Shown here piece after piece: positions 8,632-9,446 of a DNA stretch of 64,000 bases; position 1 is the stretch's first letter, and the number at the start of each line of letters is the position of its first letter. The notes below the pieces were generated by a model. The model had not been told where the DNA came from. It made no database searches and saw nothing but the letters and a program-made list of their open reading frames with translations. This DNA is from a virus, in the IMG/VR virus record IMGVR_UViG_3300034111_001103, positions 62,001 through 126,000 of that record; one strand, given 5' to 3'. The position numbers and the translations under genes are program-made.

Positions 8632-9446
8632 TAAATTTGGACCCACATAATAGGGATATTATGTTAAAAATTGGATGAATTCAGGGAAAACTGTGTCAGA
8701 AATGATATGTCAATCCTGAGCCAAGTTAAGAATAAATTCTTAAAAGGTGCAACGACTACCTGAGTAGTAAATCTACTTAATAACAGGCAAGAGCTTCCAA
8801 CATCTAGAACAGATGATGATATAGTCTAATCTAAAGGGAAACCTTTAGTTAAATAATTTTTAGTTATTAATTTACACACTAATAAAGTTTCTTCATGTGA
8901 CATAGTATGTTTCATATAATTAATTGATTGAGAAACATATTGAATATTACCTTTTATGTAACCTAAAGAAGAATCAATTCTATCTAAAGAAGCTAAATGT
9001 ATTATATCTTTCTTTTTATTGATATGACTATTTAATATTAAAGATATTCCTGAGTATATACAAATACCATTTTGTATATCCCATTGTTCTTTTAAATCTT
9101 CTAATGTTAAATTACATTCTTTAAATCTACTTTTAGCACATTTTAAATAAAATTTAAATGGATTAAAAGATTTTAATTTATTTCTTTCTATAGTACTTAA
9201 TCTTGATTTTTCTTTAGAATCTTTAGATAATATAGTCTTTTCTACAAAATGTAACCCTGTACATTCTCTAGAACAAAAAGATTTTCTATTTAATCTAACA
9301 TTTCTTAAATATTCAGTTTCAGGTTTTTCATATGAATTACCACAATGATCACAATTAACTTTTATTAATCTTCGATTTTCTTTATATTTTTGCATATGTA
9401 AATATAATCAAAATTTAATTAATAAACAAATTATTATTTAAAATTG
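8632..9446 (+). mobile_element. Group I intron in the tmRNA T loop
   Basis: The 815-base intron interrupts the T loop after TT (8630-8631). The exon end TGGGTT pairs with the internal guide GACCCA (8640-8645), placing a U-G pair at the splice site. The last base is G (9446). The core has AATTCAGGGAAAA (P4 strand), ATCCTGAGCCAAG, and GACTA (8754-8758) pairing with TAGTC (8822-8826) as P7. A GAAA-capped hairpin CTAAAGG/CCTTTAG (8831-8848) follows. An HNH gene lies in the segment after P9, in the opposite direction. T-loop insertion of group I introns is known for a few tmRNA genes and rebuilds a functional RNA after self-splicing. The core is very similar to the second intron in this window (35152-36522). 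Confidence 0.88.
8826..9395 (-). CDS. HNH homing endonuclease, antisense within the tmRNA intron
   Basis: The 189-residue protein has an N-terminal zinc-ribbon-like part with C15, C18, C41 and C45 (CDHC, FCSREC). A C-terminal HNH-type core follows, with ICIYSGISL and the ASLDRIDSSLGYIKGN segment typical of group I and group II HNH nucleases. It would cut an intronless allele to spread the intron. It is encoded on the strand opposite to the intron and tmRNA. Its last codons overlap the P9 hairpin and reach the 3' strand of P7 on the other strand. It must therefore have its own promoter upstream of 9395 or rely on leftward transcription. The antisense arrangement avoids translating through the folding ribozyme. 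Confidence 0.85.
   Translation of the reverse strand: MQKYKENRRLIKVNCDHCGNSYEKPETEYLRNVRLNRKSFCSRECTGLHFVEKTILSKDSKEKSRLSTIERNKLKSFNPFKFYLKCAKSRFKECNLTLEDLKEQWDIQNGICIYSGISLILNSHINKKKDIIHLASLDRIDSSLGYIKGNIQYVSQSINYMKHTMSHEETLLVCKLITKNYLTKGFPLD

Follow-up and report, generated by a model that had tools for sequence, protein, structure and literature searches.

An antisense HNH endonuclease gene in the group I intron of a phage tmRNA gene, and its relatives at other tmRNA genes

Why should the nuclease gene of a group I intron run against the intron that carries it? The question is raised by a phage tmRNA gene whose intron bears, on the opposite strand, a gene for a putative HNH homing endonuclease. 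The window is the whole stretch of DNA that was analysed (64,000 nucleotides); the virus record containing it has 168,934 bases. An earlier note, made from the window alone, had proposed that the antisense layout keeps ribosomes off the ribozyme and could act as a switch between intron mobility and tmRNA maturation.

According to its sequence, the segment 8292-9465 is a standard-form phage tmRNA gene whose T-loop is interrupted by a group I intron (Table 1). ARAGORN gives no tmRNA match in the unspliced window, and RF00023 has no match in the unspliced record. Once 8632-9446 is deleted in silico, ARAGORN recovers a tmRNA with the tag of Table 1, and tRNA-like ends, resume codon and tag frame are all present. 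All seven positions of the acceptor strand GGGGGTG pair with CATCTCC (9457-9463), wobbles included. The tag is long (23 residues), has the C-terminus ELVVA and is followed by two stop codons. A tRNA as intron host was rejected: the tag frame and the resume site identify a tmRNA. SmpB was not found in the viral record.

The Rfam model Intron_gpI (RF00028) matches 8621-8848 on the plus strand over its full length (1-253) with 87.6 bits (gathering score 50). This match includes the conserved core from P3 to P9 with the guanosine site of P7. Both group I end rules are seen in the sequence (U8631.G8640 at the 5′ splice site, terminal G9446). The gene, the intron and its boundaries are read directly; splicing would follow from them, with a seven-base T-loop, TTCGAAT, as the predicted product. 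The T-loop intron is not reported by an Rfam scan of the whole window with the default filter. A second group I intron is found at 36198-36474 on the plus strand, 3′ of and overlapping a sense LAGLIDADG gene (35221-36231); a default Rfam scan over 35221-36474 does not report it.

Table 1. Features of the interrupted tmRNA gene. Positions are those of the window.
Feature	Positions	Strand	Basis and remarks
tmRNA exon 1	8292-8631	+	5′ acceptor strand GGGGGTG through the first two T-loop bases; ARAGORN on the spliced sequence
Tag reading frame AEKSDFSFEDAMNFVSTEELVVA	8384-8458	+	Two stops; ARAGORN after splicing
P1	8627-8644	+	GGGTT 8627-8631 with GACCC 8640-8644; U8631.G8640 at the 5′ splice site
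Group I intron, 815 nt	8632-9446	+	Between TT and CGAAT of the T-loop, terminal G; Rfam Intron_gpI, P1 U.G rule, reconstituted T-arm
P7, guanosine-binding helix	8754-8826	+	Strands 8754-8758 and 8822-8826; read against the Rfam alignment
HNH homing endonuclease gene, 189 aa, antisense	8826-9395	-	ATG to TAG; homology, PHROG 3322, predicted fold
P9 hairpin, C8831-G8848	8831-8848	+	7 bp, GAAA loop; overlaps the final codons of the nuclease gene
Possible -7 element TATATTTA, Bacteroidota-type	9399-9406	-	Weak: TAnnTTTA, final A for G
tmRNA exon 2	9447-9465	+	T-loop CGAAT, T-stem, acceptor CATCTCC, discriminator A, next base; ARAGORN on the spliced sequence
Intrinsic terminator-like hairpin and T run	9514-9541	+	3′ of the tmRNA gene; 1 found, shuffle mean 0.3

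The nuclease frame is intact and occupies the intron between the ribozyme core and the 3′ splice site. The layout described in the earlier note is confirmed: the gene has the coordinates given there and lies antisense in a tmRNA intron, its last codons cover P9, and its end meets the end of a P7 strand. This meeting is limited to a single base. The TAG stop (plus-strand CTA, 8826-8828) has C8826 alone in common with P7; of the core, the coding sequence thus covers P9 and one P7 base.

The window protein is matched by PHROG 3322 ("endonuclease", 3.5e-20), and homologues with 44-46% identity are found in records of crAss-like and gut phages. An AlphaFold2 model (31 rows, mean pLDDT 86.8) places strands 134-139 and 151-155 before helix 156-164, which is the order of an HNH core. 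The best fold match in the PDB is PacI (3ldy; Foldseek probability 1.00, E 0.023, 20% identity). As modelled, the protein has the HNH beta-beta-alpha-metal fold and is PacI-like. The zinc-ribbon cysteines and the HNH-core residues are invariant or almost so in 34 aligned homologs. No HNH model was found in Pfam at E 1; the hits were zf-FCS and a metal-binding domain, each under cut-off. Searches of NCBIfam and of PDB sequences gave no match. The PHROG match, the phage homologues and the PacI-like fold place the frame far beyond a chance ORF, a candidate rejected on homology, fold and selection.

Relatives were collected by an IMG/VR profile scan, which confirmed 178; the best 80 of the 178 were used. 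L-numbers refer to the compared loci (L001, crAss-like cr6_1; L003, crAss-like cr128_1). The 80 loci, the window, L001-L003, L006, L007 and L011 make 87 entries. L011, L016, L017 and L078 were left out (partial, or from the virus of the window itself); thinning of the other 83 by 4-mer overlap gave 56 non-redundant nucleases. All 56 state labels were assigned by hand; those of L018 and L063 were settled after the tree, L018 being treated as unknown in the tree and as antisense in the tree-aware test. The Rfam intron search covered the records of 50 loci (46 of the best 80 and four pattern loci) and gave a match in 23. L004 and L005 are identical to the window across 2063 and 3001 bases. In a scan of GTDB genomes, none of 138 pattern stretches was a relative, so no bacterial copies were seen among them.

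All 56 non-redundant members lie in or adjoin a tmRNA gene according to the hand classification. The evidence for tmRNA came from ARAGORN on the loci, ARAGORN after splicing, RF00023, pairing-rule scripts and reading of flanks; RF00023 had a match in 23 of 27 records, 17 of them above cut-off. Ten members are in a T-loop intron (window, L001, L003, L019, L020, L021, L031, L043, L067, L071). Downstream of the tmRNA 3′ end, 20 members are antisense, five of which adjoin a tmRNA with a short nuclease-free intron, and 22 are sense, five of which adjoin an intron-bearing tmRNA. Of the other four, L002 occupies the spacer of a permuted tmRNA in antisense orientation, L029 and L063 are sense genes that closely precede a permuted acceptor piece, and L018 is divergent and adjoins the tmRNA 5′ end. 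For five distant homologs (28-35% identity), no tmRNA was found within 1.5 kb; their neighbours are recA, capsid, Dps or other genes. A published survey reports tmRNA in 2.3% of phage genomes (PMC9004378). From this distribution the nuclease family looks specialised for the tmRNA gene. In L093, the tmRNA upstream of the nuclease is seemingly split in the T-loop later than TTC, perhaps at the common position 7.

When homologous introns were compared for nuclease orientation, a check suggested in the earlier note, all ten non-redundant in-intron members proved antisense, with intact frames that directly follow or overlap the core. The nuclease-bearing introns of relatives have 799-871 nt. In the crAss-like phages cr128_1 and cr6_1, the tmRNA gene likewise has a group I intron with an antisense nuclease gene, whose product shares 44-46% identity with the window protein; L011 has the same layout at a contig end. 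The CTA stop is adjacent to P7 in the window, L003, L021, L031 and L043. The frame goes 31-52 nt further into the core in L001, L019, L020, L022, L067 and L073, covering the P7 3′ strand and P8; that of L071 also ends within the core (P7 3′ strand not located by script). ARAGORN did not confirm a tmRNA in spliced L001, L003, L014, L021 and L023. L021 and L023 are truncated by contig ends, the T-loop of L001 has 8 bases, and the tmRNA assignment of L003 and L014 rests on acceptor pairing and the T-arm.

The in-intron frames appear to be kept. In the five in-intron pairs of measurable closeness, dN/dS is 0.08-0.20 (L003/L021, 0.079; L001/L019, 0.200; L020/L022, 0.126; L020/L073, 0.088; L022/L073, 0.095), with the caveat that retrieval of the relatives through protein similarity is biased towards intact frames. 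For the intron-less pair L002/L007 the value is 0.073; deeper and less informative pairs give 0.239 (L031/L043) and 0.393 (L020/L067). Sequence comparison thus indicates that the nucleases of the relatives are under purifying selection. For the window protein, dN/dS stays at about 0.51 (window/L001, 0.509 at dS about 1), since no close, non-identical relative was found, L004 and L005 being identical. A decayed frame was rejected on the in-intron values. Decayed frames in homologous introns, named in the earlier note as what would speak against its proposal, were not found in this set, whose retrieval favours intact ones. The notion that the antisense frame is an unexpressed relic is very improbable: the promoter element of the window is weak, but the frame is intact, its zinc-ribbon cysteines and HNH core are invariant or nearly so in the 34 homologs, and the in-intron pairs give these low ratios.

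Some of the host genes are permuted. Once spliced, L020, L022, L067 and L073 are permuted tmRNAs according to ARAGORN, with the tags GNLNIVDYTGLKEAA (L073) and GNYNVIDYTHVA (L067). In cr6_1, a permuted tmRNA with an intron is indicated by pairing, ARAGORN giving no confirmation. A nuclease-free intron of 217 nt is found at the same T-loop site in L012 and L013, where ARAGORN confirms the spliced tmRNA; these phage contigs of about 345 kb have the long tag DDIFDIVTSQEAVVESALEVVA. L014 has a sense LAGLIDADG gene at this site. No report of an intron in a permuted tmRNA gene, or of a tmRNA intron with a nuclease gene on its opposite strand, was found among the open-licence papers searched. RAGATH-9, RAGATH-20 and RAGATH-7-associated RNAs and hatchet ribozymes occur near the permuted tmRNA of crAss-like or gut phages (L001, L002, L006, L007); in L001, the RAGATH-7-associated RNA ends about 40 bases ahead of the tmRNA T-arm.

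A possible insertion footprint is found in L042. Perfect direct repeats of 25 bp (3594-3618 and 4196-4220, 602 bp apart) flank the nuclease gene and correspond to the tmRNA T-arm and acceptor/3′ end. With the first copy the tmRNA is complete, and the second can be read as its original end, displaced. The locus has the appearance of an insertion that brought along a new tmRNA end, and the repeats point to the T-arm, which is also the site of the introns, as the place of insertion. When 20 bases of the tmRNA end were sought on the far side of the nuclease in the 42 downstream loci, a perfect copy was found in 1, a count that may be too low as several automatic tmRNA-end picks were wrong, mostly in intron-bearing genes. 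L079 has 17 of the 20 bases, which may belong to another tRNA-like gene.

Separate expression of the nuclease from the minus strand, on which the proposal of the earlier note depends, is likely. TAnnTTTG is described as the -7 consensus of the main sigma factor of Bacteroides (PMC7366714). This motif, chosen after inspection of the sequences, occurs within 80 nt upstream of 6 of the 10 in-intron nuclease genes (shuffle mean 0.74; 0 of 500 shuffles reach 6). Sigma-70-like promoters were not enriched (14 found, 13.9 expected). No minus-strand terminator-like site was found in 8000-9700, so the nuclease mRNA probably extends over the core.

Could this mRNA pair with the core and block splicing, making nuclease expression and tmRNA maturation mutually exclusive? 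Such a switch is unlikely. The probable read-through into the core would allow it, as would the frames that pass the P7 3′ strand end by 31-52 nt in the six loci named above. All ten in-intron members are antisense versus 20 of the 42 downstream ones (Fisher p 0.003), a contrast between members that are not independent by descent. However, the antisense orientation is about equally usual outside introns, the in-intron state represents about three independent captures, and once the tree is taken into account in-intron state and antisense orientation are not significantly associated, the members being related and forming three independent pairs. In the window, moreover, the coding overlap with P7 is one base, and the authors who described a nuclear rDNA intron of antisense layout propose that such interference is avoided there (PMC9548176). 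As 20 of the 42 downstream, non-intronic members are antisense, the orientation seems independent of the intron. It is common where no intron surrounds the gene and is unlikely to have arisen for splicing control. Neither the protection of the ribozyme from ribosomes nor the switch is thus supported as the purpose of the layout.

The nuclease tree suggests another origin. The in-intron state requires at least 3 changes on well-supported branches, and L071 (in-intron) is sister to L058 (antisense, adjoining an uninterrupted tmRNA) with support 100/98. The simplest reading is that T-loop introns repeatedly captured a nuclease that already lived beside the tmRNA. The order, adjacent first and in-intron later, would be a parsimony reading, as the tree is unrooted and many of its inner branches are weak.

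It is considered quite probable that a nuclease family specialised for the T-arm and 3′ end of tmRNA genes was captured at least three times by T-loop introns and has its own minus-strand promoter. The window element would be a mobile group I intron, self-contained and housed in a phage tmRNA gene, with its HNH gene on the opposite strand in the part that separates the core from the 3′ splice site. The probable target of the nuclease is the region of the T-arm and the acceptor 3′ end in tmRNA genes that lack the intron; repair would then copy the intron into the cut gene. Outside introns, repair would copy a nuclease cassette from which the cut gene regains its tmRNA 3′ end. The ribozyme would excise the intron and restore the T-loop, so that the phage would keep its tmRNA despite the element. 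The minus-strand promoter would drive the nuclease, whose orientation would be inherited from tmRNA-adjacent ancestors and not made for splicing control.

The main targets of the nuclease could instead be tmRNA genes in co-infecting phages or in the host (marker exclusion), with the intron or the cassette conferring chiefly self-immunity. This is rated improbable. The majority of relatives do lie beside the tmRNA and outside introns, a T-loop intron would divide the presumed target, and the collaborative homing of F-CphI at psbA offers a precedent (PMC6083498). Against it, homing and exclusion cannot be separated by sequence, and intron-less downstream members would require another means of self-protection.

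A motif near the nuclease start leads to a further proposal. CTCCA, also chosen after inspection, occurs within 80 nt before the start codon in 31 of the 42 downstream members (shuffle mean 2.8), the tmRNA end itself contributing part of this signal in the sense ones, and in 1 of the 10 in-intron members. Its letters are those of the tmRNA acceptor end, in places in two copies about 21-24 bases apart, in either orientation. In L027, L035, L046, L062 and others, CTCCAC, often twice at this spacing, is followed by TATTTAT near the ATG; it is inverted upstream of the nuclease start in L075, L081, L084, L089 and L091. CTCCA could be an operator or a trace of insertion. Autorepression by I-TevI is a precedent for the operator (PMC2988022). 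It is improbable that the nuclease reads the tmRNA 3′ end both as its DNA target and, as CTCCAC, as its promoter operator, and that in intron-borne members, where the antisense mRNA would also cover the ribozyme core, a burst of nuclease transiently stops tmRNA maturation. If true, tmRNA in Bacteroidota phages would act as a ribosome-rescue switch under the control of homing. The window falls outside the operator idea: its sequence upstream of the nuclease is the inverted tmRNA 3′ exon, and 1 of the 10 in-intron members has the motif.

Under the favoured reading, that of capture from beside the gene, the family is apparently dedicated to one non-coding RNA gene and includes several stages from free-standing neighbour to intron-borne nuclease, which occur in standard and permuted tmRNA genes alike. 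An intron-containing permuted form is added to the known tmRNA forms. Such phage tmRNA genes are probably under-annotated, since ARAGORN and the Rfam tmRNA model miss them unless the intron is first removed in silico. How mobile introns acquire nucleases can be tested directly with sister pairs such as L058/L071. Bonocora and Shub reportedly wrote in 2009 of a "likely pathway for formation of mobile group I introns".

F-CphI at psbA is likewise a free-standing nuclease beside an intron site, described as a step before an intron-encoded nuclease (PMC6083498). It has a DHHRN/Endo VII motif and acts at the protein-coding psbA, whereas a PacI-like HNH protein is found here at tmRNA; in the tmRNA family, unlike F-CphI, in-intron, adjacent-with-intron and adjacent-without-intron states coexist. 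The likeness to PacI concerns the HNH fold: PacI is a restriction enzyme with 20% identity, and membership is not claimed.

Bacterial tmRNA introns, as described in the 2025 tmRNA catalogue (PMC11915505), likewise interrupt the T-loop, with a U at -1 and G as the last base; a minority of them contain a nuclease gene, which in some cases follows P9. Position 3 of the loop is given there as known only from Bacteroidia; the site between TT and CGAAT may be position 3. The catalogue counts nuclease genes in 36 of 883 introns, names LAGLIDADG for their detection, lists no intron above 700 bp and tables permuted and intron forms separately, the combination of the two being absent from its table (PMC11915505). 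The window intron shares the T-loop position but departs from this pattern (LAGLIDADG if any, at most 700 bp): its gene is antisense and HNH-type, it has 815 nt, and some of its relatives are in permuted genes.

A similar layout is known from the Didymium L2066 intron of nuclear rDNA: there too, a group I intron of a structural RNA gene carries in its P9 region a nuclease gene on the opposite strand, for which a promoter of its own was proposed (PMC9548176). It differs in its eukaryotic host, the His-Cys box family of its nuclease, a spliceosomal intron and polyA. For the rDNA intron, a spatial separation of the polymerases that make the transcripts was proposed (PMC9548176), which is unavailable in an infected bacterium. 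Antisense nuclease genes were thus already known in nuclear rDNA introns; what appears new is an antisense HNH gene in the intron of a tmRNA gene.
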